DNA from: Hydrangea macrophylla
Lineage: Eukaryota; Streptophyta; Magnoliopsida; Cornales; Hydrangeaceae
Reading direction: 5' to 3'
NCBI GenBank assembly: GCA_033977485.1
Contig: CM066988.1
Coordinates: 28,252,501 to 28,316,500, forward strand
DNA length: 64,000 nt
Position numbers and translations under genes: made by a program. Of this stretch, positions 3,209-43,497 are shown in pieces. Under the pieces are notes generated by a model. The model searched no databases. It was not told the DNA's origin and saw only the letters and a list, made by a program, of their open reading frames with translations. Positions within the stretch are counted from its first letter, which is position 1. Each line of letters begins with the position of its first letter.

Positions 3209-4839
3209 CATGTTGCTAGTCTCTTAGCAACAAAGCTAAATACCAAGAGATTTAAGAATAACCTTGCACAACAAGTTATTTAAAATGAAAGATAAACCGT
3301 TTTCGTGGGGAACACGATTGCATTGAGCATATGTAACAAGCCGTTAAACCTCTAGGTTACCCGTAGATGTGGAGTGTTGTCTCCGGAGGGTTCTTGGAAT
3401 GATACCCACAAACATCTTGTTTTCTCATGAAAGTTACCCACTATCTAACACCGACACTCAACATAGTCCCAAGAATTTTCAAAAGATCTTAGCACATGAC
3501 ACGTAAATCTAAAAAGTCATCAAACTATCAGGATTATTAGTTAAACTTCATTAAGCTCAATCTTGGATGCGTGTGTGGTGTGAAGTGCAAAACTACAACT
3601 ATCAAGAAGATTGCAATGCTTTAATAATCCAAATTTTGTTTAAAATGCGCTTTAACTCAATTTTCACCAGTATTACACTCAAAACATGAATCACTCAAAA
3701 TGGGTAATACATTTAGGGCATGCGGGCAAAAAGAGTAATGAAAATGGATATTAAAGCCACGCATATGCCAATGATGAAAAACGTAAGCGTGAAAAATGAG
3801 TGAAAATTATTCTCATGAAAGATACTATTCACTAGAGGATGTGGAATAACTCTAACTACTTGTCACATCCGTTTCAAACTCCATATCATACAACTTGAGG
3901 ATCAATTAGGCCCTTGAGGAGGTTGAAGAGTGCAAAAGTGATGTTAGGTGTAGAACAAGGGGAAATGAAGTGAGATGTTTGTCTACAAACTTTGGATTTA
4001 TTGGAATGCATGGACACAGAAGATCACAAGAGATGAATCATCCACAAATATTTCTTTGAAGCTCAAAAAGAGAAGAACAATTGACTCTGAAGCTTTTTTT
4101 TTTTTTTTTTGCTTTTATTTTTGTTTTTATTTTTGTTTTTTTTTTACTTTAGATATATATATACTTAACTTCTTTTCCTTTATTTTTCTTTGTACTCTCA
4201 CAAAAAGACGATTCAATCTCTTTTACAACGTTACAAACACGATTCATACAAGGGCATCCCAAAAATGTAATTCCAACGTGGTTAAGTGAAGGACGGGTAT
4301 GTGTGGTTGAGGCTAGCAATGGTAAAAGGAAGGACCTAAAATAATTTTCTCGGACAATGTGATTCTTAGTTCTCCACTACAACGACAAGCAAGCAAGAGT
4401 TTTGTATTCCACAAAAAGATTCCTCTGATGAACAATCAAAGCAAGAAGATGAGATTATCTACGACTTATCTCAAAAAGAGAGAATTAAAGTATTAACACT
4501 CAACAATGGAGAAAATGATCTAACGCTCACAAGGGTAAAGTCTCCACATATGTTTTAAATGATTTTCGGGTAATAATTGCAATAAACATCATCCTAACAC
4601 AAGTAGTTATACAGCGTGCTAGATAATCCAAGATTTGAAATTCATGAAATTTACTATAATCAAGATAGTAATAGAACTAATGGGATTCACAAGTGTCACA
4701 TACTAAAATCGGGAGAACACTTCGAGGCATGCGTCATCGCTTGGCGTTAGAATAGGCCAACTATACCACAGTCATTGGAACCATGAATATTTTTTTTAGA
4801 GCAGATGAGATTAAAATTTCAATGAGATAAGAAGCCTCT
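3209..4839 (-). other. Element A non-coding 3' region
   Basis: This is non-coding DNA between the internal G-rich tract (4840-4856) and the 3' polypurine tract. It holds the conserved hairpin block at 3303-3393 and a long T-run at 4089-4145 (A-run on the element's strand). No frame with a recognisable domain is present; the 104-codon frame at 3975-4289 reads through the low-complexity T-run. The corresponding gaps in B (20721-22503) and C (40684-43557) are also non-coding. Confidence 0.7.
3303..3393 (-). ncRNA. Conserved hairpin block, copy in element A
   Basis: On the minus strand this matches blocks at 22267-22378 (B) and 43383-43497 (C), although the three elements have unrelated-looking LTRs. 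It starts 96 bp upstream of the polypurine tract. Visible hairpins are GGAG-ACAACA-CTCC, a TTACAT...ATGCAA stem, and TCGTG-TTCCC-CACGA. GGAG/CTCC here replaces CGAG/CTCG of B, and T-A in the last stem replaces C-G, both pair-preserving. A role as an RNA (or DNA) structure acting near plus-strand priming, export or packaging is inference. I do not know a named family for it. Confidence 0.6.
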
Positions 4840-4856
4840 CACACCCCCCAACTAGG
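4840..4856 (-). promoter_or_regulatory. Internal polypurine-like tract, element A
   Basis: On the minus strand this reads CCTAGTTGGGGGGTGTG, nearly identical to the 3' polypurine tract. It lies after the accessory frame and is preceded by GAGGACAATGCA. Element B has the same arrangement at 20690-20720. It may be a central or secondary polypurine tract. Confidence 0.55.
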
Positions 4857-5204
4857 ACTGTGCATTGTCCTCAATGAGACTATAAAGTGTAAGGGGAAGA
4901 ACAATATTATTGGAAGTCGCCAAGCAGAGCTTGCGGTAATAGATTGTGCCTGCAATGTTAGAATCCAAGAAAGAGAAGAAAAAGATAACAAGTAATGTGA
5001 TCTAGCACAATAGTAAAATTGTAAGCATAGGCCAAAAATCACATACACACATGTCCATAAAACATCCAAAGTCAATCCAACTAAAACCCTGAAATAAGAT
5101 AACATAATCATCCGAACACAAAAGTACAACTCCCAGTCTAACAAGATGTACATAAACACACCCTAGCAGAAACAACAAAAATGAAAAACGAGCACTCCTC
5201 CTAA

Positions 5205-6083
5205 CTAATCCTCATCATCTTCATCGCCGCCATCATAGGGGCCCGAACCACTAGCTCTACCATAAGCACCAGAACCACCAGCTCTGCTATACGCACCAGA
5301 ACCACCAGCTCCGTTATAAGGGCCTGGACCACCAGCTCTGCTATAAGGGCCTGGACCACTAACTCCACCATATGGATCACGGAAGTAGTCTGGGACATCA
5401 GCGTCCATGTACTGCATACGGAAAGAGTCGGCCTAAAAACACATCATCATGCTGATGTCCCACCGATAGCTCATACTGAACCCATAAAACTCCCCCCGCA
5501 GGACACGAATATATCCCCGAATCCCTGCAATCTCCTAGCTCTGTTGTCGCTGCTCTGTACTCAAAGTCTCGAAGCGGCGATGTAGCTCAACCATACCCAG
5601 CGCAGACACTGACTCTCCCTCCTCTACCTCAGCTTGAGCCCCAGATGGGCCTTCCTCCACCCTGGCTCTCTTAGATGCGAACCTAACCTTTGCGTCTCTA
5701 CGAATTAGCGTCGTCCCATTAATTGGGGCAGGCATTACTTTCAGGACATCGGACGCTAAGGCCGCGCACCCATGGGCGGTGCACAGCCGAGTAACAAGAG
5801 TCGCGAAGGGGAGGCTAGCAGTGGCAGTAGTATCATTCGACGCCACGATTATGTTAGAGATAATAAGGCTCGCAAAGTCAATACGGGTGGCAGGGTCGGT
5901 AATAGCATATAGGAGGGTAGAGTGGTCCCCCCCTGATAGTCTTGTGGCGAGTGGGCCACACCGCAGTAGTAAAAATGATATTGCAGTAGCAGTAAAGCTT
6001 GGTGAAAGAAGATGGGACAATCTGGTCCCCGATCCACTCGGTCTGTCGGCCCGTGAACTAGGTGGCGATGATATCCAAGTCAA
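5205..6083 (-). pseudogene. Element A accessory frame, C-terminal part (broken)
   Basis: This continues the accessory protein that begins in 6088-7176, in shifted frames. The 5535-6083 frame carries the rest of the conserved domain (a Leu-Tyr-Ala-Ile-Thr-Asp segment, then an LPF-x-x-LVTRLC motif), a basic KRAR patch, an acidic stretch and a helical MVELHRRFETL segment. The 5205-5417 frame is the tail, built of 9-residue units such as GGSGAYSRA and ending GDEDDED. The same order (domain, basic patch, helix, low-complexity tail) is seen in element B at 18824-20282. At least two frameshifts and several stops break it. Function is unknown; families of this type sit in the env position of Athila-like elements. 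Confidence 0.6.
5233..5367 (-). repeat. 27-bp coding minisatellite
   Basis: About five tandem 27-bp units each encode nine residues of the type GGSGAYSRA or GGPGPYSRA on the minus strand. They form the Gly/Pro/Tyr-rich part of the accessory protein's tail. Units differ by a few substitutions that mostly keep the Gly, Tyr and Arg-Ala positions. Confidence 0.75.
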
Positions 6084-6087
6084 TCCT

Positions 6088-7176
6088 CTACTCTAAGTTA
6101 TCCAGGTAAGGCTCAGGGTTCTCCACATGAAGCAACCCCATAAACACAGCTAAAGTAGCAGGGGAGACTGGGATGCGGACACCCCAAACATAGGACTCGA
6201 AGGTGCGGGGGGTGGTGGTGACTAAGCTGGCGAAGAAAATCCTAACCCAATTCTCGTTGTACTGACCCGAATGCTTCAACTGGGGTAGCCAGCGACGGTC
6301 CCTAAATATACGGACCACATTGGTAGGGAAATAAAAAATCGTACTAAGGCGCTCGGGGAGGATGCATTTCTTAACCTTAAAGAAATTATTAAACCACTTC
6401 TTTTCAGTTTTGGAGCAAAAATTGTCGTAGCCATGAGCGGGGCTGCACTCAGTTTTGTTGTACTTAAGTGGATTCACCATGGTTCCAGAAATATCGAAGA
6501 AATCCTGTACCAAAGAGTCAACAAGAGAGATTTCATAAATATTGTCAACATTTTCCTCATCAAGATTTGGTTGCTTAAAGAGTGAGAAGATGTTCACATC
6601 CACAGTCATATTTGCAAAGTTTAAGCGCATGAAACCATTCCTACAATTAATTAATGCATTAACAGTAGCATGGAACGGCCGCCCTAAAATGATTGGAATC
6701 TGCGATTGCTCATTGACAACGGGTTGCGTGTCAAGCACGATCAAGTCCACCGGATAGTAGAAATTACCCACTTGGACTATAACATCTTCTATAATGCCCC
6801 GTGGCATCTTAACGAACCTAACGGCCATTTGTAAGGTGACACGGGTCTCCTTAAGCTCTCCTAAGCCTAGTTGGACATACACCGAATAGGGGATAAGATT
6901 CACTCTAGCACCCAAATCAAGGAGTGCTCTATCTATATGGTGTTGTCCAATCACACATGCTATAGTAGGATAATCGGGGTCCTTATATTTGGGTGGAATC
7001 TCGTTAAGGATAACGGAGCTCACATGTGCGGCCATGTAGGCACTCTTTTTGACATTAAGCTTTCTTTTAACGGTGCAAAGATCTTTGAGGAATTTGGCAT
7101 AGGCCGAAACTTGTTTAATTGCCTCTAAAAGGGGGATATTAATTTCAACTTTATTAAACAATTCCAAAAAACTCAT
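6088..7176 (-). pseudogene. Element A protease fused to accessory domain (RT/RH/IN missing)
   Basis: The 362-codon frame starts with an FLELFNKVEINIPLLEAIKQ-type pre-protease segment (residues 2-21), close to element B's EFLELFKQVKINLPLLDAI. The aspartic protease follows, with active site ALLDLGARVN (about residues 84-93) and ILGRPF near 163. From about residue 265 the frame is no longer pol. It carries a post-integrase accessory domain of the Athila type (NWVRIFFASL, then RGV-like VWGVRIPVSPATLAVFMGL), resembling what I recall as the plant 'Transposase_32' family. RT, RNase H and integrase are absent with no stop at the junction. The frame ends at 6088 and continues out of frame in 5535-6083. 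This is a deletion derivative, not a designed fusion, unless other copies share the junction. Confidence 0.75.
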
Positions 7177-7204
7177 TATTCTTGGTGTTCTCGACCTTCT
7201 TTTT

Positions 7205-7902
7205 TCACCTTTGAGGTAATGGTGGAGTGGGGTTAAAAAATTCTTGGTTCATGTAGTTGAGGGCTTTAGAAAAGTCCCCATCCATGTCGACCACATTTGG
7301 GATCAAAGTGTCCCCACTATCAAGTTCGGCCTCTTCTCCAATCGGATTATTGCTAATTGGTGGTTCTTGGGGAGGCTTTTGGACCTTGTTGTCCACGACC
7401 TTACTACTTCGAAGAGTGGTGATTCCTTTTAAGTGCTCAACGGCGCCATTGGGGTTTGAGGTTCCACCATTAGATTGTCCTTTGGGATTTTGGAAAGGTT
7501 GAGCGGGAAGCTTTCCCTTGTCAACAACTTGTTTATTTGAAGTAATTGAGCCAATTGAGCTTGTAAAGCTTGCATGGATTGAGCATGCGATGATTGCATT
7601 GCTCAAATGGATTGCTCAAGTTGGCTCATTCTTTGGGACAAGCCATGGTTTTGATCTTCAAAGCTTTTCTTGTAAGGGGGCACATAAGGGGTTGAGTGTT
7701 GAGGCGCCCCTTGATTTTGGGTGAATGTGGCCCTTGAGATTGAGGAATGGATGGACCAAAGTTTGGAGGGGCATACGATGATGGTGATGGTTGATGCGGA
7801 TAGTATGGTTGTGGAGGGGCATTGGGTGCTACTGTTCCCCTTTATTGTTGTGGTAATTGTGCCCCGGAGCACTCCACCTTTCGGGAGGATTGTAGGCATC
7901 AT
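7205..7902 (-). pseudogene. Element A gag-protease linker (frames broken)
   Basis: Two overlapping frames (7603-7902 and 7205-7606) carry the low-complexity linker between nucleocapsid and protease that is typical of Athila-like polyproteins. Visible pieces are a VPPYKKSFEDQ segment, a Gln/Leu-rich helix, LPAQPFQNPKG and the ITTLRSSKVV motif (compare VTTLRSGKVI in element B). The frame shifts near 7605. There is no catalytic domain. Confidence 0.65.
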
Positions 7903-8152
7903 TTTGAGAAGGATTGAACCTAGGCCTAATGTTCATCCCGAGCGCACATGCTTGCTCCAGAGCTTGATTTTGAAGGATAGGAAGAACGAGGCACTCATTA
8001 GTTGAGTGTTCCGGATCATAGCACAAGTAGCAATTCAAAGGATTTATCGGTGCGAGGATCGGGGGAGGAGTCGGGACCATAGTGACCTTTTGAGATTCCA
8101 AGGCCTCTACTTTCCTAGTGAGTTCAGAAATGGATTCGGCCTCACTCGACAC
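7829..8152 (-). pseudogene. Element A gag C-terminus with zinc knuckle
   Basis: The 107-codon frame contains a short coiled segment (SISELTRKVEALE) and one CCHC-type knuckle, CYLCYDPEHSTNEC (about residues 41-54), where the nucleocapsid part of Athila-like gag normally lies. It follows the capsid part after a stop at 8222 and about 70 bp. RNA binding is the family role. The rest is Pro/Asn-rich. The copy is broken from its neighbours by stops. Confidence 0.7.
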
Positions 8153-8221
8153 TTAGTAAAGATTATGATTTAACAGGGCTACGGTGACCGGTAGGGTTCG
8201 GTCATGAGGGTTGGATGTACC

Positions 8222-8869
8222 TCACCCACGTAAAGTCTCATAAACATATTCTAAATGGGTTTCGGCTTGCTCAGCTTCGAGAGTTAAGAAACTCCCAGAG
8301 CACATGGTTTCGATTAATTGTTTTGTATTGGGTTGTAGCCCCCCATAGCAAATGGAAATTTGAAAGAATTTGTCAAAGCCATGGTGCGGGCATTTCCTAA
8401 GGAGATCCTTGAATCTCAACCAACACTCAGCAAAGGTCTCGTGTTCTCCTTGGGAGAAATTTTGAATTTGTTTGACCAATGCTTGTGTTTTGTGCATGGG
8501 GAAAAACTCCTTATAGAATTGCTTTTGAAAAGGAGGTGGTGCATGCGGCAGGTACATGGGTGGAGGTGTGGGGTTATGTTGGCCCCATTGCTCCCGATGG
8601 AAACGATCCATGGGAGTTTTGCCTTCCATGGCAAACGTAGCATGATCTGAAAATGCGTCAACTACTGGCTCTCGGTAGCCGGTACTGTGCAAATTTTGGG
8701 TGAATGATGGTGAAGAGGTGGTCGAAGGCCGCCAAAACGACCCACTACTACTACTGCTAGAACTAACATTATTATTAACTGCAAAGGGGTTAGTCATACC
8801 TGCATTGCTCGGATTTGACATTGTAAGAGGTTGTCGATTCTCACTTAAAGAATACTCCTTCAAAGACAA
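8222..8869 (-). pseudogene. Element A gag, capsid part, internally deleted
   Basis: The 215-codon frame begins 82 bp downstream of the primer-binding site. Residues 1-90 are Ser-rich leader. From about residue 113 it joins the second half of the retrotransposon gag domain (QKQFYKEFFPMHKTQAL, then FAECWLRFKDLLRKCPHHGF). The first half of that domain (the LRLFPFSLKDKAK-type segment seen in B and C) is missing, so this copy has a second large deletion besides the loss of RT-IN. It ends ETLRG at 8222. It is unlikely to form particles by itself. Confidence 0.7.
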
Positions 8870-8950
8870 TCAACAAGAAAGCAACAAAGATTAAAAGCAA
8901 AAGTAGAATAATTAGAAACTAAGCGACCTAAGGTTGTTGCCAATTTCAAT

Positions 8951-8967
8951 CCCCGACAACGGCGCCA
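8951..8967 (-). promoter_or_regulatory. Primer-binding site of element A (tRNA-Asp)
   Basis: On the minus strand this reads TGGCGCCGTTGTCGGGG, complementary to the 3' end of plant tRNA-Asp(GUC) with one mismatch. It starts 3 bp inside the 5' LTR. It fixes the element's orientation and end. Confidence 0.9.
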
Positions 8968-8970
8968 TTT

Positions 8971-9486
8971 TGATGTTGTCAAAATAAAGTTCTTGTTTAA
9001 CCCTATTAAAAATATAGTATGTTAAAAGTAGAGTGTCGAGCCCACAGGGATTGCAATGTAACAAGGCTTGTTGGGTGCTTAATAACCAATTATAATGCGA
9101 GGAACAGTTAACAAACTAAGAAATAAAATTTGAGTCTTTGCTACTTTGAGATTGGTTTAATTTGTATAAGACTATACTACAATGACTATTTAGTAACAGA
9201 GAGAATAAACTTTGAGTAAAGCTAAGTTTAATTGACAATTGGGGGTCTTGTAAAAGGTGAAATTGAGGTTGGGGAGCATACCCCCACCTTGGACCAACCA
9301 ACACATGACTCTCATACTTGTAGTACATTCTAGAGTAGAAAATCCCATTGTGACAAACTATCAAACATGTGGTAGTCAACCAATATGTTAGATGGATGTT
9401 CTAATGTAATATATGGGTATGTGGTTAGAGTTAAGAGATTTAACAACTTACAATGCTTGACATTGGAAGTGGGGTTTCAAAACATC
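8971..9486 (-). repeat. 5' LTR of element A, inner segment
   Basis: This is the U5-side part of the 5' LTR, homologous to 1741-2256. It is cut at 9486 by element B; bases 9482-9486 (ACATC) are the left copy of B's target duplication. The LTR resumes at 24487. Confidence 0.92.
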
Positions 9487-9740
9487 TAACAAGCGAGGGT
9501 ATTTGTAAAATACAACCGCGCTAAAAGAAGAAAATGTGCTAAATTATTTCACAATTCCTTCATTTATCTACAATTTGAATTACAATGCTAGTTTGCACAC
9601 AATTGGATTAAACTATGATAAGTTGTTTATTTTGGCTATAGTTTGTGCAGATTACTGTTGCTGTGTGAAGAATGGGATGAGAAAGATAAAAGGGAGTGCT
9701 GAATTTGAATGAAGACAAGTAAAAGATGAAAAGTAAACCT

Positions 9741-9849
9741 CGATCGATTGAAGACCATTCGATCGATCGAACGTTCGATCGATCGAGAGAAGATCAAGCA
9801 TTCGAAGACTCCAGAAGTTCAATCGATCGATAGATATTCGATCGATCGA
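9741..9849. promoter_or_regulatory. TCGATCGA palindrome array upstream of TATA, 5' LTR of B
   Basis: CGATCGATCGA-like sites start at about 9741, 9760, 9776, 9821 and 9839, with a half site TTCGAAGA near 9802. Spacing is mostly 16-19 bp, or 27 and 18 around the half site. The last site ends about 70 bp upstream of the TATA run. In the 3' LTR the centre of this array has been replaced by integrase sequence. Confidence 0.75.
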
Positions 9850-9919
9850 ACATGGCTTTTATCAGATTTTACGCGCACGTAGCAGAAGTGGGATTTTAAC
9901 CCTAGCATTAGGTCTTAAC

Positions 9920-9927
9920 TATATATA
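9920..9927 (+). promoter_or_regulatory. TATA box, 5' LTR of B
   Basis: TATATATA lies downstream of the palindrome array. The matching site in the 3' LTR is at 23308-23315. It is the probable core promoter of the element; the start site is not visible. Confidence 0.55.
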
Positions 9928-10340
9928 CTCGTATTGTATACGTCCATAAGGACGCCCACTTTTATTTTCATCAGTTTATAGAGAGTAGAGAGATTTACTT
10001 TGTTTATTTTGTAGGTTTTCATCAAGGATACACATTGTTTGGTTTGGATTTCCCTTACTTCAATACAAGTTTTTGTTTGTAGGTTATTTTGTTTACGTTC
10101 TGCACTTAGTTTATAGTATTATATCTTGTTATCCAGTAGTCTTGCATGTTAGTTATAGTTATACAATTAGTTTCCATAGATTCATTGCAAAAATCACAAA
10201 CAAACACGCCTTTAATGGAACTTTACATTAAAAATGAATCTGAGACACTCTAGACAATGTCTGAGTAGTCTCCAGGTTGGCAGATCATGAAGAAACCGTG
10301 ATCTCAAGCCTCTACCATGCAGCAGTATAATTCCTATGTT

Positions 10341-10456
10341 CGATCGATCAAGAAGGCTCGATCGATCGAAACAGAGATACAGTCGAGCGATCGAAGTCAG
10401 TTCGATCGATCGAGGGATGAAGATATTCGATCGATCGAAAGCGCGTCCATCGATCA
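10341..10456. promoter_or_regulatory. Second TCGATCGA array, transcribed part of LTR B
   Basis: Sites start at about 10341, 10359, 10384, 10403, 10428 and 10449, average spacing about 21.6 bp. They lie downstream of the TATA box, so they would be in the transcript. The 3' LTR copy (23729-23838) has one fewer site, consistent with recombination between units. Confidence 0.7.
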
Positions 10457-11121
10457 AACTCTCTGATTCTTGAGGACATTCGATGAATTATTCCTAGACT
10501 TTCTGCTTTATTAGATTGTTATCAAATTGTCCCCAAACGCTCAGTTTGTCAAAACAGTCTGTGAACTTTAAGCCTTGAGGCACTTTTTTTCAATATATTT
10601 TGCAAACCACCCTTAATGCTAACACCATTGTAGGTGAGAGTCAAAACTATTGTTTTAAACCGCTTTTGTGTATTTCAAACTTAATTGTGATGATATGGTC
10701 GCGGTCATGAAAGGACTATAGATTCTTTATCCTAAGAGAAATACGGAATACTGTGGAGAGTGTGCTCCATTGAGCTTCAACGTAACTGCATGGTAGATGG
10801 CTAGGTCGCGGTGGATTCGTGTAATCCCAACATTCCTTTTTAGTATGAATGACACGTTTTAAATCATTGCTTTAATTAATTAGTTAGTAATTAGTTTAAT
10901 TTAGTTTAAATCTTTAGTAGTTGATAAATTGTGGAACTTTGTGTTCTACACTCTTTTAGAATACTGATTTTTATTTTCTTGTTTGAGATTAATCTGAGTA
11001 ATTAGTTTAACACCTTCCCTGTGGGATCGACCTGGACTTAACCAGACTGCTACTTGCACGATTACTTACACTTGGGTATAGCAAACAAGCGCACAGAAGA
11101 ATAATTCTCGTGTCAAGTTTT

Positions 11122-11139
11122 TGGCACCGGTGCTGGGGA
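11122..11139 (+). promoter_or_regulatory. Primer-binding site of element B (tRNA-Asp type, degraded)
   Basis: TGGCACCGGTGCTGGGGA lies 6 bp after the 5' LTR. It matches the 3' end of plant tRNA-Asp at 15 of 18 positions. Confidence 0.8.
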
Positions 11140-11244
11140 AGGCGACAAGCTAACACTTCGATTACCTCAATCTATTCATACCTTTCTCTATTTTTCTTTT
11201 TCTTTTGTTCTTTAGATTAAAAACTACTTAGGGTCTTTCCCTTT

Positions 11245-12320
11245 ATGTCCGATAATTCCATCGAAGGAATTTACGGGAACCCATTCTATTTATCCAACTC
11301 ATCTAGTTCTACTAACCCCATAGTTACACCTAATGATTCAATGGCGGATAATCAAAGTGAAAACGATGACAATGTGGTTGTACCAATCGACGATTCACTT
11401 CGTCCTTTGTGCGATCTCATGACACCTGAACACGCGCCTAGGCCTTCTTGTATCCTCATTCCACCCCATGTAGGCGAATTTCAATTTCGCAATGGAATGA
11501 TTCAACTCCTTCCTACCTTTCATGGAATGGAGAGCGAGAAAGCGTATCTTTATGTCATGGATTTTGAGGATGTTTGTAAAACTTTCTCACAGAACTTTCC
11601 TGTAGACATGACATGTTTAATGCTATTTCCTTTCAGCCTGAAGGATAAAGCAAAAGCGTGGTTACTCACCTTGAAGCCGAACTCCATCTACACCTGGCAT
11701 GCGATGAACACGGCTTTCCTGAAGAAACTCTTCTCACCTCGCATGACCACTGAGCTTAAACGACAAATAAATTCTTACAAACAAAAGAGCAATGAAACAT
11801 TCACCCAAACTTGGGAACGTTTCAAGGATTTGCTACTCTCATGCCCACATCACGGGTACAAGAAATGGTAAACCATCAGCTACTTTTATGAAGGATTAAA
11901 TGGTAAATCTAAGAAATTGGTCGAGACCATGAGTTCAGGGCCATTTCTTCGTAAAAACACGGAAGAAGCTGAAGCTCATTTTGAGTGGTTAGCTGAGCAC
12001 GCCCATGAGTGGTCAAATTCAGACGATGTCCCACGCTCACAGATATCCTGTGTGGAAGAAAAAGTTTATACCAACTAAAAAGTGAGGATCATCTGATGAA
12101 TAAGTATGAAGAACTAGCAAAGAAAGTCGAAGAATTGGGTAAAGGAGAGAGTTCTAGGCAGTTTTTGCTTGAAGAACCATGCGGCACATGCAGCATGCTA
12201 GGACACACAACTCAATACTTTCCCAATCTGCTGTATTTTCAAGAAAAACCCCCCATGGAAATGAATGCCATGCAAGGGTATAGGGGGGCGGGGAATTCCT
12301 ATAATAATTATAATTCATAA
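11245..12320 (+). pseudogene. Element B gag
   Basis: The frame opens at ATG 11245. A low-complexity leader is followed by the retrotransposon gag (capsid) domain: FHGMESEKAYLYVMDFE (near residue 93), LFPFSLKDKAKAWLLTL, then FTQTWERFKDLLLSCPHHGY. A stop at 11869-11871 sits in the conserved capsid segment directly after this motif. The frame resumes to about 12005, then shifts into 12009-12320, which holds a coiled Lys/Glu segment and one CCHC-like knuckle (CGTCSMLGHTTQYF, last Cys lost). The protein would form the particle and bind the element RNA. It is inactive as it stands. Confidence 0.8.
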
Positions 12321-12519
12321 AATAACAATAGATGGAATCACCCCGGGTTCGATTGGAAAAAACAATGCGGGGACTCAAAACCAATATCAACAACAGCCCT
12401 ATAGTAACAATAATCAATATCATTGGTAATGCAACCGGCAGTCCCAGCCATTCCATCAAAATAGAGCAAATAACTATAACAACGCTCAACCCCCTAATAA
12501 TTAACAAGCAAATGTTTAT

Positions 12520-16880: not shown

Positions 16881-16904
16881 ATCTTGATCATAATCTGCTA
16901 TTCC

Positions 16905-16921: not shown

Positions 16922-16931
16922 GCTGTCCAAC

Positions 16932-30890: not shown

Positions 30891-30898
30891 TATATATA
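30891..30898 (+). promoter_or_regulatory. TATA box, 5' LTR of C
   Basis: TATATATA is followed by a short leader. The counterpart in the 3' LTR is at 43933-43940. Confidence 0.5.
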
Positions 30899-31820: not shown

Positions 31821-31838
31821 TGGCGCCGTTGTCGGGGA
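31821..31838 (+). promoter_or_regulatory. Primer-binding site of element C (tRNA-Asp)
   Basis: TGGCGCCGTTGTCGGGGA matches the 3' end of plant tRNA-Asp at 17 of 18 positions, 5 bp after the LTR. Confidence 0.92.
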
Positions 31839-32330
31839 TTGCAATCTTTTTGCCATTAATTTTTAGAATCTTGATTTAGTTAGTTAGTAAATATTAGGCT
31901 AGATTTTATTTCCTTTATTTTTTAGTTAAAGTTTTCAAGTCGCTGAAATTATCCTTTGTTTGTAGCTCTCAAGTCGTCAAATCATAAGTGAAAAGTGGAG
32001 TAGCGGTGCACATCAACGGAGCTTATGCGAATTCTAAAAAAAAAATTGCAAGAAAATGAAAAAATACCAAGTAAATCTATTGTGTTTTTAATTTTGCATC
32101 AAGGCACTGTCAGTCAGGGCACTGAAACGCATTACTTGCATTAGCTTAGGTGTGGTGCGAGCACATGCATTTGCTAGGAAACCCGGGGTGCTGGGCTTTG
32201 ACACGAATCACTACATAACAGGATAATTGCATGCATCATAGTAGTGTTGTGTGCATGTTTGGATATTTACATAATTTATTCTCTTATTTGGTGAAGTCAA
32301 TCTTTATAGTAGTGTTAGTTTCTTTAGTTT

Positions 32331-34130: not shown

Positions 34131-35300
34131 CAACTCATCAAATCGACCTCATAGGGATGATGACGAGCTGGATTGTTATGCGATAGACTTAGTTGATGAG
34201 TTAGTAGAAGAGCCAGCCCCTTTATACACTAACCAAAGAAGCCTTAGAAGAGTGTTTATCAAATTTTAACTTTAACAATTTTGACGTTGATAAATCCATT
34301 GAAGAATTGAATAACCAAATGGAATTACTAAACACGACAAGCATATTTCCATGGATGCCCAAGATAGAGGTTCTTCCCCATCTTGCACATGAGCCTGTAC
34401 TGCCATCCACTGAGTGTCCACCGACGTTGAACTTAAACCGTTACCAAATTCTCTTAAATGTGCATTTTTAGGAACCAATACTACACTCTCGATCATAATA
34501 GCTTTGAATTTATCTATGGACCATGAGATTCAACTATTAAAAGTCCTAAGAGATCATAAGAGAGCTATTTGTTGGATGGTAGCTGACTTAAAAGTAATTA
34601 ACCTGTCTGTTTGCATGCATAGAATAAACTTAGAAGAAAACGCTAAACCATCTAGAGAAATTCAAAGACATCTTAACCCTAATATGAAAGAAGTAGTCAT
34701 GAGAGAGGTTATTTAACTTTTAGATGCAAGTATAATCTATCCGATTTCTGATAGTAATTGGGTTAGCCCCACGCAGGTTGTCCTAAAGAAATCGGGCATC
34801 ACGGTCGTGCCAAATGCGAAAGGGAAACTTTTTCCCACCCGCCAAACTACTAGTTGGCGGGGATGTATTGACTATTACAAACTTAACACTATGACTCACA
34901 AAGATCATTTCCCTCTTCCGTTCATTGATCAAATCTTGGAACGTCTATCTGGTCAAAGTTTCTATTATTTTCTAGATGGACACCCTGGTTATAACCAAGT
35001 ACCTGTATATCCTGATGACCAAGAGAAAACAACGTTCACATGTCCCTTCGGAACCTTTACATATCATCATATGTCGTTTGGCTTGTGCAATGCACTGGCC
35101 ACTTTTCAATGGTGTATGATGGCAATCTTTTCAGATATGGTTGAAAAGTTTTTGGAAGTATTCATGTGCGACTTTCTTTTTTTAGTCCTATGTTTGAAGA
35201 GTGTCTACAAACGAAGGTCCTTGCCCATTGTGAGGAAGCGAATTTGGTTTTAAGTTGGGAGAAGAGACATTTTATGGTTCAAGAGGGAATAGTCTTGGGT
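34131..35300 (+). pseudogene. Element C reverse transcriptase
   Basis: Visible segments are LKPLPNSLKCAFLG, NWVSPTQVVLKKSGI, WRGCIDYYKLN, FLDGHPGYNQV (first catalytic Asp) and FTCPFGTFTYHHMSFGLCN. The second catalytic block is FMCDF at about 35161-35175, where one of the paired Asp residues of FMDDF has become Cys, so polymerase activity is not expected even apart from the frameshifts near 34717 and 35175. Confidence 0.8.
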
Positions 35301-35985
35301 CATGTCGTATATATATAAATGTGGCATAGAGGTTGATGAAGAAAAAATTGAATTGATAGATAAACTCCCGCCACCGTCTTCCATCCGTCAAATTCGTTCA
35401 TTTCTCGGTCATGCCGGATTTTACCGTCGATTTACTTTAGCAAAATTTCTAGACCCTTTTGCAATTTGCTTGCCAAGGACACCCCATTTGTCATTGATAA
35501 CGAATGCCTTAAAGTTTTTAAAACATTGAGAACTTTACTTTCCACGGCTCTGGTTATCAAATCACCTAATTGGACTCTTCTGTTTAAATTAATATGCGAT
35601 GCATCTGATTACGCCGTTGGAGCCATTCTAGGTTAGAAGGTTAATAAAGTCCCTCAAATTATTTATTATGCTAGTAAGACCCTTAATGACGTGCAATTAA
35701 ATTACACTACCACTGAAAAAGAATTGCTAGCGGTCGTGTTTGCCCTCGATAAGTTTTGTTTATACCTATTAGGGTATAAAGTTATTATCTATACTGACCA
35801 CGCCGCATTGTGTCATCTCTTAAATAAAAAGAAATTAAACCTCGTTTAATCCATTGGATCTTACTCCTTCAGAAGTTCGATTACGAAATAAGAGATAAAA
35901 AGGGATCTGAAAATGTAGTTGTTGACCACTTGTGAATTCTGGTTGATTCTAATGATATTATTCTGCTTCAGGATTTATTTCTGGA
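35301..35985 (+). pseudogene. Element C RNase H
   Basis: The RT connection IRQIRSFLGHAGFYRRF is followed by RNase H segments LICDASDYAVGAILG, YYASKTLNDVQLNYTTTEKELLA and IYTDHAALCHLL. A stop falls at 35635 and frameshifts near 35520 and 35845. The order matches element B. Confidence 0.8.
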
Positions 35986-36956
35986 CTAACAACTATTTGC
36001 GTTATCTTATGTAAAGTGTTCGTGGTTTAGCGACATTGTAAATTACTTAGCTATCGCATATATCCCCCCTCAATTGTCTCGACAAGATAAAGATCGATTT
36101 TTCTCGCAAGTTAAACATTACTATTGGGACGACCCACTTTTGTTCAAGCATTGTTCTGATCAAATCATACTCCGCTATGTCCCAGAGAGTGAATTTACCT
36201 CCATTTTAAATTTCTCTAACTCTTTCGAATGTTGTGGTCACTTTGCTGGTCCTCAAAAGCGGGTTATATTGACCAAACTTGTTCAAAGACGCTCATGAAT
36301 TTTGTCAAAAGTGTGTGCGTTGCCAACAAATTGGTGATGTATCACGTCGTGACGCAATTGCCTCTCACACCTATTCTAATAATTGAAATTTTTGACGTGT
36401 GGGGCATTGATTTTATGGGACCGTTTTCGTCATCTTTTGGTTTTGAGTATATTCTAGTCGTTGTCGACTACGTTTCCAAGTGGGTGGAGGCAGTAGTGAC
36501 GAAAACGAAAGACCATAAAGTAGTAATACAATTTATAAAAGATAATATCTTTTGTCCTTTCGGTACACCATGAGCTATTATAAGCGACGGCGGCACACAT
36601 TTCTGTAATCGTCATTTTGAAGCCCTTGTTCGAAATTCCATTACTCACAATGTAGGAACTGCGTATCATCCTCAAACCCAAGGGCAAGTTGAAGTCTCTA
36701 ATAGAGAAGTAAAATGCATATTACAGAAAATGGTACTACCGCACTTTGGGCCTACCGCACTGCGTACAAAACTCCTATTGGGATTTCCCCATATCGATTA
36801 GTGTTCGAAAAAGCTTGCCACTTACCTGTTGAATTAGAGCACAAATCGTATTAGGGCGTTAAAGCCTTTAATCAAGATATAAAATCAACTGGATGTCACT
36901 GAAAGCTTCAACTACAAGAACTTGAAGAACTAAGAAACGAAACCTATGAGAATATC
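35986..36956 (+). pseudogene. Element C integrase, 3'-truncated
   Basis: The zinc-domain part is damaged (ECCGHFAG, with the downstream Cys pair displaced by a small deletion). The catalytic core is recognisable: GIDFMGPF with the first Asp, [11 protein letters not shown] with the second, [12 protein letters not shown] with the Glu. It ends after LEELRNETYENIA, where CpG-rich array sequence begins abruptly. About 70 C-terminal residues present in element B are missing. Confidence 0.8.
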
Positions 36957-37420
36957 GCGCGCGCGGCCTGCTTGCACAATTTTGTCTCTTAGAGAATTTT
37001 TTTGAAATTGAATTATAGATGCCTCAGATTCATGTCGTGCCTCAAATCGCGTGCGTGAGGGCATATCGCTCGAGCGACCCGCTCGCGCAATCTCTTGCCT
37101 TAGAATTTTTCTTTAAAAAGCTTTACAATGACCCTCAGTTTCACATCACAGAGGGACTCGTGTGACCTTCCCCCTTGCCTAAAGGGCTATTCAAGCCCTA
37201 ATTTTTCAGTTCCTTCTCTTTCTTTTCATCTTCTCTCTTTCTCGTGATTCCCTCTCTCCTTCTATCCCTCAAATCGCACGTGCGAGGGGCTATCGTTCAA
37301 GCGGCCCGCTCGCGTGATCCTGTGCCTTAAATTTTTTTTCATGTGCCTTTACAACAACCCTCAGTTCTACCTCATGGAGGGACTCACACGCACGAAGACC
37401 ACTCGCGTGGTCCGCTCGCG
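36957..37420. promoter_or_regulatory. Internal CpG-rich repeat array of element C
   Basis: Copies of a unit with CGCGCG or GCTCGAGCG then GCTCGCGCAATC start near 36955, 37068, 37292 and 37400. Each of the first three is followed by a T-rich segment and CCCTCAG or CCTCAG. It includes palindromes such as TCGCACGTGCGA (37274-37285). About 230 bp (37040-37260 and 37265-37500) are an imperfect tandem duplication that includes the downstream CCCTAATTTTT and CT-rich parts. The motif type is shared with C's LTR. Confidence 0.6.
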
Positions 37421-37437
37421 TGATCCCCCTGTCTGCC

Positions 37438-37445
37438 TATAAATA
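37438..37445 (+). promoter_or_regulatory. TATA box of a putative internal promoter in C
   Basis: TATAAATA lies 18-40 bp after the last CpG-rich motif and is followed by a CT-rich initiator-like tract (37483-37530). The first half of the tandem duplication has lost the TATA (GCCTAAAGGGCT at 37176). It could drive a subgenomic transcript of the accessory frames, or derive from an LTR of a related element. Confidence 0.5.
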
Positions 37446-37499
37446 GGGCTGCCTAGCCCTAATTTTTTCAAAATATTTTTTCTCTCTTCTCTCTCTAGC

Positions 37500-39179
37500 T
37501 CGCAATCTCTCTCTCACTCTCGTTCCCTCCCATGACCCTCTCCTCCCCCCATTAACCACCACCAACCACCACTATAACTCCACCGCCGACCACTGTCAGC
37601 CAGCAATCACCATCGCCGACCACTGTCGGCCAGCAACCAACACTGCCGGACGCCACAATCGCCGCTACTGTCACGTTTAGCGGCCAAGATCTCCCTCTCT
37701 GCGTTATCTTGTTCCCTCTATATAGGTATAGAGATATATATATATACATACCTATATAACCAGATAGTGAAACATGCATATACATATAAAGGCACATCCA
37801 TAAAAACGTAACCCTGGATTTATAAATGTACACACATTGATGAAATTTTAGGGTTTTGATTTGGGGCTTTTGAATATTAACATATGTATATACATATGTA
37901 GGTACATACATATATATATTTTCAACTCTATACACTAACCTAACCCCCTGTACCCAAGTACACACATTCACACAATAAACCCTAGCTTTTCAGATTGGAT
38001 AATATAAATTTGTCCACTCACAGGATTGAACTCGTACACACAGACCTTCACTCATTAATCTCTTTCAACCCTAACCCTAATCAATAGACATTTAGGAGAA
38101 TTTTGTTTACCCTATTTTCCTCACTATTTTTTGAATAGATGTTCGATTTTGAGTTAGTATATATGAATTTTAGGTAAGTTCCCAACTTGGTCTTAAAATT
38201 GGTTCTCCAAGGTTGCTCCGGAGTCGATTTGTCAAGATCATTCAAAAATGAACTCTTATTTTTCGTAATTCTCATGTTTTCCAAATAAAGAGTAGTTAGA
38301 GTACATTAATTCTCATCCAAAACATACCCATGACCTAATTAGTGCATGCTCTCAATTTGCTAAAATTCATCCTACATACACATTCTAACCAAGGGTTTGT
38401 TTTGTATTGTGTTCCTAGAATACATTTAAAAAAAAACTCTAGAACATCTTGAATCATTGTCAAATTTTGAGTTCACATTCATTCAATGTATGTGCACTAT
38501 ATTCTAATCTCTTATGTAAGAAGCACAATTATCATCCTGAGGTCGTTAAAATCAAAATTGAATCCGAGCTTTTCCAATTTAATACTTTCAAAGGGAACTC
38601 AATTTTTGAAATTCTTTAGTCCGACCTTCACTTTCTGAGTTCACATACAGCAACGCCATGACACATACTCGTTAACATTAACTAGGTGTCTCAACTAAAA
38701 TTTTGGCAAATGAGAAACTTTCAAATATGTCTACATTGCTCACTAAACACGCGACAAGTACCTTGTGACTTGCCGCAATGTGTGTGCCCTTGTCGAGACT
38801 ATGAGTGGGAAGGGGGTAGTCCCTTCTCACAGCTGCTAGATGTTACCTGTGGACCCTACTTTATTTTATTTACAGTACTATATTGATTGTATCCCTTGCC
38901 GAGATTTCTTTCTTTGCAGGTGACTCTTCCCTTTCCCTCTCCTGTGTCCCTTTTCTTTTTCTTTTTTAGGCATTAGACCAATTTTAAAGTAGACATTTTC
39001 AAATTTTTTCTTTTATACCCACACCCACCTTTAACTATGACCTAAAGATCAGTCAAATCAAGGTCTCGCTCCTAACCACCTCAAAACAAATAAAAAGGAA
39101 AAGAAAAACAGACTGACCCTAACCCAAACGACGTATCGTCCAAATACGCCACCCGCGGTCTCAATTTGAGACCGCCATT
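37500..39179 (+). other. Element C untranslated stretch
   Basis: This is a leader-like region. A Pro/Thr-rich CACCACC stretch (37550-37660) is followed by AT-rich DNA with a TA microsatellite (37736-37752) and an acceptor-like TTTCTTTCTTTGCAG ending near 38920. No recognised gene is present. Confidence 0.45.
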
Positions 39180-40205
39180 GACGCTGACTTCTTCGATGCC
39201 AGGTGGGGTCATAACACCTTGAGCGCCCAAAAATTGGCCCCACAGCTCTTTTTCTGCAACCCTAACCTAATCAGCTACCCCTGCCTCATCCGTCTGTTTT
39301 GTCAAAACCTTCGCTACCATAAAGAATCACTGAGCCAACATGCCTACCTAAGCACCACCACAAATAGCCATACCATTACCCTCAACCCCGATAACATCGT
39401 CACTTCCCTCCAGCTCCCCTCTCACACCTACGAGGTCCCAAAACTAAACGTCTTATCCAGATTACACCATTTCACCCATATCACCCAGGACAGACTATAC
39501 GTAGATCATACATAGCATGGTAGATGTGGTTCGTTGACCACGTCTTCAAATGTAACCTTTACCCTTTACACCACGAACAGGAGAAAATAAAAGAGATTCA
39601 CCATGCCCTCCACGCTTATATCGCGGGGACTAGTTTTACCCCGATCTGATCATCATGGAGGGCATGCATATAGATGGCCACATCATCGACCACGCCATCA
39701 ACTTTAACTCCTTCTGCCTTATCCTTGAACAATCACAATGATCCTTAGATCTAAAGCATTTCCTATACCTACAGATGAGCCGGTCGATAGACGAATCCCG
39801 AAGTTCACTTCCACCGATTGGAAGTTGAGCCGAGATGAATCAGTTATAAAGGTTAGGAGGGCTAAGGATTAGGCCCAGGCATGTTAGGAGTTAGTGGCAC
39901 ATCATCCACCTCCGCCTAAGGGTACACCATATGCCTGGACCTACGACGACATTTGGGCCTTTAGAGTTAAGACCCTACGGCTGTAATCATACATGCACTC
40001 ATATTTTCAGCTGGCTAATCCTGATCACCTAGAGGATATCTTAGCCCAGGTAGAGGATTCTTATCAGTCGTCATTTCCATGACCTGTGCAGTAGACTATT
40101 AAGGTGGCTAGTAAGGAGAAGGAGGATGCTGAGGTTGGTGATGAAGGAGGTGATGATGAAGGCTTGAGTGATGGTAATGGCCAGGGGCTTCTAGGTTAAA
40201 GTTGG
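39180..40205 (+). pseudogene. Element C accessory frame 1 (env-position protein)
   Basis: The frame holds PCLIRLFCQNLRYHKESL and ITLNPDNIVTSLQLPSHTYEVP (39219-39515), the same domain core as in A (NWVRIFFASL...VSPATLAVFMGL) and B. After a stop at 39513 and a shift it continues in pieces (FTSTDWKLSRDES, then GTPYAWTYDDIWAF) to an acidic tail (EVGDEGGDDEGLSDG) ending about 40200. It is heavily broken. Function is unknown. Confidence 0.55.
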
Positions 40206-40668
40206 TATTAGTTGAGGGGGATGATGACTAGGAGCAGGTGATAGACATCTTTTTTACTTTTTACTTGTATTTGATGGGTAGGTATCAGACATTCTCAAAC
40301 ACTTCGCATGTATATTATTTCATTTTCTTACTATTACTTTTCATTTGCATTTTCTTTTCGTTCTTAGGATTCTGATGCACCCAGCTTTGACCGGTTTAGT
40401 TTTTTTTTGTTTTTCTTTTCATTTTTTTCTTTGGGTCTATAATTATTATTTTGTCTCCCTTCTTTTCTTTCAGTTTCTTTTTGGTATGATTATATTCCCG
40501 AAACTTACATTAGTCACACAGTTAGCTTTACTACTTATTGGTTACGCATCTACATCCATAGTTATTTAATTAATCTTGTGAATTAAAAACTTTTGCGACC
40601 TTCATAAAATCATTAATTGCGGTCACATCTCGTTCCCCATTACACTATATAGGAATCTATTAGGTTCA

Positions 40669-40683
40669 GGTTTGGGGGAGGTG
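40669..40683 (+). promoter_or_regulatory. Internal polypurine-like tract, element C
   Basis: GGTTTGGGGGAGGTG lies after accessory frame 1. It resembles the element's own 3' polypurine tract (GTAGGTTTGGGGTG) and occupies the position seen in A and B. Confidence 0.5.
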
Positions 40684-40825
40684 CTGCCCAAGATTTCTTT
40701 AATATTAGAATTATTCACAGTAATTGAAACATTATGCTTTTTATTGATGGACATTCTCAATAACCAATAACGTTAATTTGTTATTTTTGTTTTGTTAACA
40801 AAAACTAATTTAATTGTAGTTTTTG

Positions 40826-40842
40826 GTTAGTTCTTGTTTCAG
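40826..40842 (+). promoter_or_regulatory. Splice-acceptor-like site before acidic frame of C
   Basis: GTTAGTTCTTGTTTCAG ends at 40842, followed by GTTTATG. A similar TTTTCGTTCTTAG ends near 40367. They parallel the acceptors of B. Confidence 0.35.
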
Positions 40843-41044
40843 GTTTATGTTTTTAGCAATCTATACTGCTCACCTCTATCCTCTATTCATACTTTCAAAC
40901 TACTATAGACCACCCTATATCTCCTCCATCTTTACCTGATAGGAACTCTAGTGAGTCGAGTCATCGTTCCGACTCTAGTTCATCTACTGATGATACCTCA
41001 CCTAGATCACAAGTACCTAATCCAAAGCCTACAGTCCAATAGGT

Positions 41045-41695
41045 TGTCCCGATTGTGATCCTTGGTCCTTGTATCCTCGTCGTCCTCGCGTCCCCATACC
41101 TATTTGTTTCGAATCTTTGGACAGCGAGGACGATCTGTTCGGTGATGACCCCACATATTTTGATGGTCCCTATGGTGCTCCACCTACCACTTCTGAGTCT
41201 TTTTCTTCTTCAGATTCGATCTAGTCCTTAACCAATGATGATGAGGATGAGGATGACGAGGAAGTTATACAGAGTCTATGTGTTATTCCATCGCGTGAGG
41301 CTATCGAGACCACTGTTACTTCGCCCGAGGTCACATATCCTTATCAGGATTTACCGGATTACGTTCCAAACGTTGTTAGACAGCAATCGGGACACTCGGA
41401 TTATTCCCCTGAGGATATCGCTTTCATTTTGGCACCCTAGGACAGTTTTGAGGAGGATGACTTAGCTCTAGAGCTGACTAAGGATGAGGATGAAGAGATA
41501 GAGCCGCCTTTCGATCCCGCGAAGCATCCAGGCTAGGCGTTGATTGATTCTTATATACGCGATACCTCGCCTCGTTCTTCAGATGCTTTTAGGGGTGTGG
41601 ATGTGATGGTCATCAACACCATGGAGTACATTCATGTCATTGTCATGTTCCCACCGGCATAGGGACATGCGGTGACTAGGCTTAGGGGAGTATAA
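41045..41695 (+). pseudogene. Element C accessory frame 2 (acidic)
   Basis: One reading frame runs from about 41045 to TAA at 41693-41695, interrupted by four TAG codons (after SSSDSI, after AFILAP, after AKHPG and after VMFPPA). Every one could be CAG changed by one C-to-T. It encodes an acidic, Ser/Pro-rich protein: SLDSEDDLFGDDPTYF, NDDEDEDDEEVIQSL, then HSDYSPEDIAFILAP, and a C-terminal VDVMVINTMEYIHVIV. The DIAF block is similar to WTTDEIAFCLSPY of element B's frame 1. Function is unknown. The regular C-to-T stops suggest an intact protein before silencing. Confidence 0.55.
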
Positions 41696-43382
41696 TGGAT
41701 CTTTGTTTAGTAGGAGTAGTCATTTAGTTGATGAGTAGTAGTTTTATTTTGTTTCGTTTATTTTCAATTGTTAATAGTTTAGTAGTTAAGAATTTTTCTT
41801 GTTCAATTTCATTTCAATTTTTCATTTTCTTTATTCGTTATTTCCTTTATTCATTGTAAAAAAGAAAAAAATTTGAACTAGTAATAGTAATATTAATAAA
41901 TAAAGTATGAATTTTAATATTTTCAATATTCAATTTTGTTCTTAATTGACTAGATTTCTTTGAAAACTTGAGGTTAAGAGAGTACAAAATCCAATGTCTA
42001 CTAAAGCTATGAAGGTATGTCTTAAAAGTTATTTGTCGTTGGAATCATTGTTTTATATCTTGAACTCACATACTTTTTTATGCACGACACGTAGTCATAT
42101 GGATGCATGTTGATATTGAGTTATAATATAGCTTGGATTTTTAGATAGTACCATTGTAGAGACTAAACCGGTGAGCTTTAGAGCCTTTCATCCTTGTTGA
42201 GGGTTTTAAAATAACTTTATCGAATCTTATTGGCAAAGCGCATTATCTTGTTGATTAGTCTCAATATTTCTTTATTTTGATTGAAAGTCGAGTTAGTATT
42301 GTAATTACCATGTTTAATAAAATATAAATACATTTCCCTTAATATCGTAGCATTGAAAGATCATGTGACCTTAGGAGATGATATTAGGCCATCCTTCAAT
42401 TTAAACCCCTTTTTGGCCTTTGAATTACCCATTACAATAATTTTATACTTTTGTTAGCCCCTTTAGCCTTAAAATAAGCCATTTTCTTTGTTCACCCATT
42501 ATCCTACCCATTTCGATATAGAGTTTGCTACTATATAAAAATACCTAACCACTGTCCAAAAGTGGTTGAAAATGGTTGTCCATTAAGAAATTGGGCTAAT
42601 AATGACTAGTAGAAAGAAGAGTAGTGAGTAGAATGAAAAAAAAAAGTGATATAAAGAAAAGTATATATTAGAAAAAGGATCGAAAAAAAAAGAGATTGAA
42701 AAAAACAAGAAAGGAAAAGGAAAAAATATATGAAGTAGTAAATGAGAAATAAATAGTCATTGCGGTAAAAGCTCTTGTATTACACGTTACAGCCAATCAT
42801 ATCTACCTTTACCTTTCTTTTCTAGCTATAACCCGTGGCCGACATTATAACCCTTTTTAAAAGTCCTATTTGATCCTAGGGAAACATGAGTTGAATATGA
42901 AAATGATAGAAGAAGGGAATAAAATATGGTAGTGATAATATTTACTTGACAATCAATATTTGTTCGTAAGACTATTATTCTTCTGTGTCATACGTTGTTT
43001 TGTGTCATATTCGAGATTAATTTATTCCATAAACAACTATCTCCCTTGCATATACATGAGTGATTATACCTGTTTCGGAATGTTTCATTTTTGAGTGTGA
43101 TTAACAACATGAGATTTGTGGTCGAATAGTTATCCGAGTTATATTCCAAGTTTATGTTCCACGCGTATCCACTTGATTACCATTCACACACATGCGAGTT
43201 TTTGATATGCTCTATTGATTCTTTCGATATATATGTTCGAAATATTTTTATGATTTAGGTGGATGTATGATTGTGTTACTCTCACTAACTTAAAGTTTTA
43301 TTTGAAATTCAGTTAGGCAAGAATGATGAGAATGTTGAAATTTTTAATAAATTTTTTTCTTTTTACAAGTTAATAAAAATGG
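41696..43382 (+). other. Element C non-coding 3' region
   Basis: About 1.7 kb of AT-rich DNA with an A-rich stretch at 42640-42730. No frame has a recognised domain. It precedes the conserved hairpin block. Confidence 0.6.
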
Positions 43383-43497
43383 TTGTGGGTGGTTGAAGAG
43401 AACCCTCACGAGACTTCACCCGTCCAACTAGGGACACCTAGAGGTTTAAAAGGCTTGTTGCACATGCTAAGTGCAATCGCGATCCATGCGATAATGT
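43383..43497 (+). ncRNA. Conserved hairpin block, copy in element C
   Basis: It begins TTGTGGGT and includes GAACC(C)TC paired with GAGGTTT, ACGAG-ACTTCA-CCCGT (one mismatch), TTGCAC-ATGCTAA-GTGCAA (43457-43475), and TCGCG-ATCCA-TGCGA (43477-43491). The C-G pair in TTGCAC/GTGCAA replaces T-A in element B. It ends about 60 bp before the polypurine tract. Confidence 0.6.

Follow-up and report, generated by a model that had tools for sequence, protein, structure and literature searches.

The window examined here is a 64,000-nucleotide (nt) stretch of the Hydrangea macrophylla genome (GenBank assembly GCA_033977485.1, contig CM066988.1, positions 28,252,501 to 28,316,500), and it holds three nested long terminal repeat (LTR) retrotransposons, A, B and C, whose LTR pairs were identified by self-BLAST. 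We found that the three elements have in common a block of 114 nt, which lies just 5' of each 3' LTR, once per element and in sense orientation. The block is very probably a selected, structured, cis-acting RNA. Our reading as a whole, that it is a cis-acting structured RNA of the 3' non-coding region of Athila-type elements and would most likely serve the export or protection of the full-length RNA, has in our estimate a probability of about 0.42.

An earlier sequence-only reading of the window had proposed that A, B and C share such a block despite their unlike LTRs. This was borne out, except that the edges it gave were a few bases off. In the window self-BLAST, the block of A (3301-3412, minus strand) matches that of B (22262-22374) at 77% (E 6e-16), A matches C at 77% (E 7e-9) and B matches C at 83% (E 2e-16), whereas between the LTRs of the three elements there is no match at 1e-8. 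The full-length blocks differ by 27-30%. Alignable coding DNA among the three elements is 59-63% identical under softer scoring, and one A-B coding stretch matches at 67% in the self-BLAST; the pol regions of B and C are 59% identical over 2.6 kb, compared with 71-83% for the block. Seven pairs of families were compared over 3-kb loci, all from this one genome (Hydrangea macrophylla; 2.22 Gb, 19 contigs), as are all block copies described below. The block is 71-90% identical in these pairs and, in six of them, more so than any other stretch. The 100-bp flanking windows of the four most distant pairs are mostly 30-60% identical, and the flank maxima of the pairs C/D and A/A2 (74% and 79%) lie below their blocks (83% and 90%). 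The match that contains the block is shorter than 300 nt in 16 of 21 family pairs, with weaker separate matches besides. Trained on 23 copies, A, B and C included, a covariance model recovers the three blocks (Table 1), and its next-best match in the window scores 9.1 bits (E 1.3); by the same model, two further LTR pairs in the window (26320/55567 and 50569/53918) are without a block. Conservation as part of a coding frame, an alternative named in the sequence-only reading, fails, as each of the six frames is open in only 0-6 of 101 copies.

In the predicted structure, a closing stem P0 (AACC:GGUU) encloses hairpins H1 and H2 and is followed by hairpins H3 and H4. P0, H1, H3, H4 and part of H2 also come out of RNAalifold when it is supplied with 23 copies but no structure. 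The H2 loop is often GNRA-like by eye in relatives (GUAA, GGAA). Paired columns show a mean of 3.6 inferred substitutions and unpaired columns 5.0, with lower values in two motifs: UUGUGGGU at the 5' end, for which ACCC or the 3' side of H4 would be possible partners, and GGCUUGUU, whose final UU forms the first two bases of H3. Both motifs may be protein contacts. A possible alternative to P0, GGGU:ACCC, has its pairing reached by 7 of 300 simulated nulls (described below) and shows no compensatory change, both strands being nearly invariant. A long-range stem between UUGUGGG and the 3' side of H4, preferred in single-sequence folds of A and B, is a less favoured possibility, as it pairs equally well in 99 of 300 nulls.

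The evidence for selection on this structure comes from comparing copies with a home-made null, in which columns were simulated on a FastTree tree while the number and kinds of substitutions in each column were kept. Rows that were truncated (L039), partial (L130 and L138), misaligned (L066), chance matches (L001 and L055) or identical to others were removed. Across 119 unique copies, 95.2% of pair cells pair, compared with 84.6% in the nulls, a level reached by none of 300. On the tree rebuilt without L066, there are six branches with a compensatory double change compared with 1.7 expected (1/300); with L066 there were ten compared with 2.4 (0/200), two of the ten coming from that misaligned copy alone. 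The earlier proposal of a structured RNA kept by selection is thus supported. A set of 33 copies gives a similar picture, with 95.3% of cells pairing compared with 25-38% for slid versions of the structure. Double-change cells exceed all 500 letter shuffles both there and in 23 family copies; the count of pairs that show any double change is less clear, being reached by 114/500 and 40/500 shuffles. All three paired changes that had been read from A, B and C are real and recur among 120 copies: CG in 92 and GC in 13 at H1, UA in 92 and CG in 17 at H3, and CG, UA and UG in 53, 42 and 22 at the middle pair of H4.

Taken stem by stem, H1 is 96.8% paired compared with 81.1% in the null (0/300) and has two compensatory branches (14/300). 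H2 is 96.6% paired compared with 83.5% (1/300), also with two compensatory branches (11/300), one of which is confined to a single copy. H3 pairs in 97.2% compared with 89.2% (12/300), the final tree showing no branch with a double change there, and H4 in 86.7% compared with 74.9% (18/300), with two compensatory branches (58/300). Non-canonical or wobble states found in at least 10 copies are G-U (158 cells at three pairs), C-A (45, in the outer two H4 pairs) and U-U (17); with the C-A and U-U states recurring, H4 is short. H1 and H2 are well supported and H3 and H4 moderately so, and the structural support is for the whole rather than pair by pair.

The block is abundant and regularly placed. 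The core pattern GGTTTAAN{1,3}GGCTTGTT has 13,681 matches in the genome compared with 27 for the reversed pattern, and a stricter core pattern has 4,098 compared with none in the control. The sequence-only reading had placed the block 60-125 bp from the polypurine tract (PPT). The proximity holds and the range was slightly narrow, the distance from block end to PPT motif being 94 nt in A, 132 nt in B and 67 nt in C. As that reading expected, other copies also sit before PPTs. A PPT-LTR junction motif occurs within 420 nt in 35 of 38 loci picked by their block (L002-L039), and in the 80 of 94 copies selected by block that have TT(T/G)GGGG within 220 nt, the motif lies 49-131 nt away (median 70); a pooled count of 120/134 includes 40 copies chosen for their PPT. 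Sampling independent of the block was possible through a second conserved feature, a hairpin GACTAGC..GCTAG immediately 5' of the PPT in A and B and degenerate in C. Its pattern, GACTAGCAAN{2,6}YTAGTTNGGGG, has 7,236 genome matches and none in the control. The block is present at all 20 of the first listed PPT-hairpin sites and in 19 of 20 rarer hairpin types; at the exception (L111), the DNA just 3' of the block is kept and other DNA stands in the block's place. A third and weaker sample, of 20 rare PPT types, gave 14 full blocks, two partial ones (L130 and L138) and four elements without. The covariance searches took in 100 and 31 loci, with L004-L009, L043-L050, L055 and L090 outside them. 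Two side observations concern the same loci. L139, one of the four without a block, has by eye a C-type PPT preceded by LTR-end and PBS-like (primer-binding-site-like) sequence with almost no internal region, and by eye it is a very short derivative. A tandem array (L042-L050; host contig C4, about 2.595-2.639 Mb) has units of about 1314 bp with a block in each and, in several units, a PPT motif downstream of the block; it appears to be a satellite that arose from a C-like element's 3' end.

That the block occurs in thousands of elements, and is kept amid DNA that has changed, suggests a shared part of the RNA life cycle. In our proposal, it would be a cis-acting structured RNA in the 3' non-coding end of the transcript, some 50-150 nt upstream of the PPT, would act on the RNA, and would recruit a host factor for nuclear export or protection of the full-length, intron-containing RNA. 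The blocks of A and B lie between the env-position open reading frames (ORFs) and the PPT. Element A looks non-autonomous, since tblastn at 1e-3 detects in its internal region nothing that matches the reverse transcriptase (RT), RNase H or integrase of B and C, and retention of the block there is as expected of a cis-acting signal. Splice acceptors have been predicted for the env of Athila and BAGY2 (PMC2829016), so that a full-length RNA would hold an intron. The env-less element Diaspora has 128 bp between its pol stop and PPT (PMC1142308), an interval that, judged by length alone, is too small for the block plus the spacer usual here. These four points (the place between env-position ORFs and 3' LTR, the predicted env splice acceptors, the block in non-autonomous A and the short Diaspora interval) make nuclear export our first choice of function by analogy, albeit a tentative one that falls short of even odds.

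The constitutive transport element (CTE) of Mason-Pfizer monkey virus (MPMV) lies between env and the LTR. The CTE recruits NXF1 (PMC7551171), and SERV-K1-like viruses have a non-coding piece of about 750 bp between env and the 3' LTR, in a paper whose title names a novel RNA transport element (PMC11379458). Like the block, these two elements and the RNA transport element (RTE) of intracisternal A particles (IAP) are non-coding structured RNAs, and the position between env and 3' LTR recalls the block's. Simple retroviruses, which lack an export protein, rely on such elements to recruit a host factor, the mode of action proposed here for the block. The block differs in being 114 nt long compared with 150-175 nt for the CTE (PMC7551171), in consisting of four small hairpins rather than one long stem-loop, and in its plant host. 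Export can be achieved otherwise, as in the worm element Cer1, where an encoded protein does it instead (PMC10309623).

Several points weigh against our reading. The sequence-only reading had asked whether a larger alignment would show significant covariation; pairing of the whole structure holds up there, and the significance of single pairs does not go beyond borderline. Just four of 26 pairs tested in 120 copies reach E 0.04-0.13 (two in H1, one in H3 and one in H4). When all column pairs were tested in 101 copies, none was significant and six non-paired column pairs outscored the best true pair, which means that related ancestry still dominates single-pair scores. Pair-breaking changes number 93 compared with 91.6 in the null, and 118 of 200 nulls have as few, as would be expected if most substitutions arose after insertion. 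Pairs with two strict Watson-Crick types are in no clear excess (six compared with 4.0; 40/200). H4 pairs often fail, with C-A in 32 and 13 and U-U in 17 of 119 copies, and P0 is nearly invariant, its pairing being reached by 67 of 300 nulls, so that covariation cannot test it. Taken singly, A, B and C fold no better than shuffles (z -0.8 to -1.6); together they give an alifold z of -2.9 (10/1000 column shuffles) with a covariation term of about zero, so covariation would not have emerged from these three sequences by themselves. In the closest family pair, C/C2, the block (89%) shows no excess over its surroundings, which are 81-95% identical in 11 of 13 upstream windows. The rare-PPT elements that lack the block (L137, L139, L142 and L143) count on the same side, as does the limitation of the basis to related copies within one genome. 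As for export, plants are not known to have NXF1, so a CTE-like element would need another receptor.

The main rival to export is that the block is a packaging or localisation signal, bound in its folded form by Gag or nucleocapsid, perhaps together with 5' sequences. The block is cis-acting and retained in non-autonomous A, as such a signal would be, and the minimal mobile form of Ty3 includes part of its 3' untranslated region (UTR) (PMC11381356). However, the block would also be present in spliced env RNA, as in every transcript, and thus cannot alone select full-length RNA. By eye there is no conserved loop palindrome for dimerisation, the H3 loop being palindromic in some copies only, and no complementarity to the 5' leader is common to A, B and C, A alone having a 13-nt GU-rich match (1/200 shuffles). 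We consider packaging unlikely. Stability and priming are less likely still. A stability element would shield a transcript with a 3' non-coding tail of roughly 2 kb from nonsense-mediated or exonucleolytic decay; the compact stems near the 3' end, about 2.0-2.1 kb past the last ORF of at least 150 amino acids in A and B, are in keeping with this. Yet the conserved single-stranded GGCUUGUU would be left unexplained, and Rfam 15 yields no family at gathering level, its permissive matches (B and C only) being at chance level; stability therefore seems distinctly unlikely. A plus-strand priming helper would position RNase H or RT at the PPT, which does lie near the block, and for Sireviruses a stem-loop at the PPT has been suggested to act as an RNase H signal (PMC2829016). 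Many elements already have their own PPT-adjacent hairpin, however, the distance from block to PPT varies almost threefold, and no block lies near the internal PPT-like site at 4851(-) in A, all of which makes this role very unlikely. Descent or inter-element conversion with no selection on structure would fit the 97-100% identity of the 40 copies scored among 1432 candidates for B's block, the few independent lineages in one genome and the weak single-pair statistics, but it is highly improbable given pairing kept beyond the phylogeny-aware nulls, blocks that differ as noted and yet are the most identical stretch in most family pairs, short matches in most of them, and compensated variants of H1, H3 and H4 fixed by family, on which the sequence-only reading's alternative of recent conversion also fails.

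The block also invites comparison with other retrotransposon sequences. Sireviruses have conserved non-coding motifs near the 3' LTR, namely multiple PPTs and an inverted repeat at the terminal PPT (PMC2829016); these are Ty1/copia elements, and their inverted repeat at the PPT is like the separate PPT hairpin described here and unlike the block in its upstream place. The siRNA854 region of Athila6, named for a small interfering RNA (siRNA), has likewise been proposed to form a stem-loop, and it too belongs to an Athila element (PMC3276544); it is a small-RNA source of other sequence, whereas the block's hairpins have stems of 4-6 bp. Arabidopsis ddm1/met1 mutants express Athila6 RNA (PMC3276544). 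Ty3 is of the same element type; it has a cis-acting 3' UTR region, part of the 3' UTR being included in its minimal mobile element, and the 3' half of a bipartite primer binding site (PBS) (PMC11381356). The block differs from this too. A role in 5'-3' cyclisation or a bipartite PBS found no support, as the best leader duplex allowing GU pairs is reached by 1/200 shuffles for A, 83/200 for B and 200/200 for C, with no common site. Pairing with the primer tRNA, which we take to be tRNA-Asp, likewise found no support; the best duplex is GU-rich and 9 nt long, about as expected by a hand estimate, and neither complementarity is convincing.

To our knowledge, apart from PBS and PPT, little is known of the RNA signals that act in cis in plant LTR retrotransposons, although these account for a large share of many plant genomes. 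Retrozymes, which are hammerhead ribozymes in plant LTR elements (PMC4918200), are structured RNAs like the block, which matched no ribozyme family. Nor was there an Rfam match to a CTE-type family, the presence of the CTE itself in Rfam not being established. We found no description of such an element among the literature matches listed, mostly open-access and represented largely by passages and abstracts; a term search of the available text of a report on new structured RNA classes in plants (PMC12218528) gave no mention of transposons, retrotransposons, gypsy or LTR. It is rather unlikely, in our view, that the block is all at once a previously undescribed RNA family, a host-factor-recruiting module and the plant counterpart of retroviral export elements. 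Were this so, one 114-nt RNA could reveal how unspliced plant retrovirus-like RNA leaves the nucleus without a viral export protein, and the RNA family, whose core pattern is matched some 14,000 times in one genome, would mark a lineage and be kept by a non-autonomous relative too. A short, abundant, structured RNA at a regular place is a handle on the export, protection or packaging of Athila-type RNA, and in annotation the covariance model would flag the 3' ends of Athila copies that are degraded or non-autonomous.

Table 1. Positions of the block, its predicted parts and the surrounding elements in the window.
Feature	Position	Strand	Evidence or remark
Block of A	3299-3411	-	covariance model R1, 113.1 bits; blastn
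Block of B	22263-22376	+	covariance model R1, 127.2 bits; blastn
Block of C	43383-43495	+	covariance model R1, 110.4 bits; blastn
5' motif UUGUGGGU of B, unpaired in model	22263-22270	+	0-3 inferred substitutions per column
P0 of B, AAACC(22282-22286):GGUUU(22325-22329)	22282-22329	+	98% paired; RNAalifold
H1 of B, ACGAG(22290-22294):CUCGU(22301-22305)	22290-22305	+	CGGAG:CUCCG in A family
H2 of B, CUA(g)GG:CC.UAG, 4-nt loop	22309-22323	+	one broken pair in B copy
Motif GGCUUGUU of B, between P0 and H3	22333-22340	+	0-2 inferred substitutions per column
H3 of B, UUGCAU(22339-22344):AUGCAA(22352-22357), 7-nt loop ending GCUAA	22339-22357	+	UUGCAC:GUGCAA in part of C family
H4 of B, CGCG(22359-22362):UGCG(22368-22371)	22359-22371	+	CGUG:CACG in A family
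PPT hairpin of B, GACTAGC..GCTAG, then polypurine tract	22492-22516	+	3' LTR starts about 22517
PPT hairpin of A and polypurine tract	3197-3221	-	3' LTR boundary about 3196
Degenerate PPT hairpin of C and polypurine tract	43546-43569	+	3' LTR starts about 43570
Element A, 3' LTR	1741-3194 (boundary about 3196)	-	minus-strand element; self-BLAST
Element A, 5' LTR, split by B	8971-9490 and 24486-25438	-	minus-strand element; blastn
Element A, internal region	3195-8970	-	deletion derivative
Element B, both LTRs	9491-24487	+	inserted in A's 5' LTR; blastn
Element C, both LTRs	30512-44863	+	blastn

Further searches for relatives of the block were mostly negative. Variants of GGTTTGTT, as a route to new families, gave none evident among the listed matches (205 genome-wide compared with 88 in the control). 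Searching for H1 variants that begin with G or T gave 122 matches, and the 100 listed were by eye mostly wobble or single changes. The block pattern had no match in the viral contig collection, and we rejected its single match in general genome contigs, which lies by eye inside an apparent ribosomal protein gene, as chance. A protein-guided scan of the viral contigs found no relative and an integrase-motif pattern found none; the plasmid and phage collections, searched with the block of B only, gave no match, and neither did a search with the reading frame through the block.

The LTR pairs of A, B and C have diverged by Kimura two-parameter (K2P) distances of 0.065, 0.056 and 0.107, respectively. 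Element B encodes gag, an aspartic protease, RT, RNase H and an integrase zinc domain in that order (Pfam, tblastn), and its ORFs downstream of pol matched no Pfam family. The 120 best listed matches of its protease ORF include relatives of 41-51% identity; where an organism is named, it is a plant. Element A keeps gag, protease and an env-position ORF, the protease ORF continuing into a PF20167-like ORF that scores below the Pfam cut-off, and C has gag and RT by Pfam and RNase H and integrase by tblastn. The PBS of B (11116-11150) differs from the type common to A and C (about 8950(-) and 31820), which suggests that tRNA primer use differs between related elements. Our assignment of a PBS to tRNA-Asp, the type of Calypso and Diaspora, is presumed, and a figure legend on Diaspora names tRNA-Asp (PMC1142308). 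The domain content of the three elements, together with internal PPT-like sites at 4851(-), 18133(+), 20709(+) and 40671(+), fits Athila-type elements. The sites at 4851 in A and 20709 in B have the common context GAGGACA(A/T)TGCA..AGTTGGGGG; an extra PPT in Athila4/Calypso is already published (PMC2829016). Finally, a 388-bp piece of the 3' LTR of B (22801-23188) is 94.6% identical to the element's own integrase region (15477-15864) and unaligned in the 5' LTR, and it possibly arose by a template switch or conversion.

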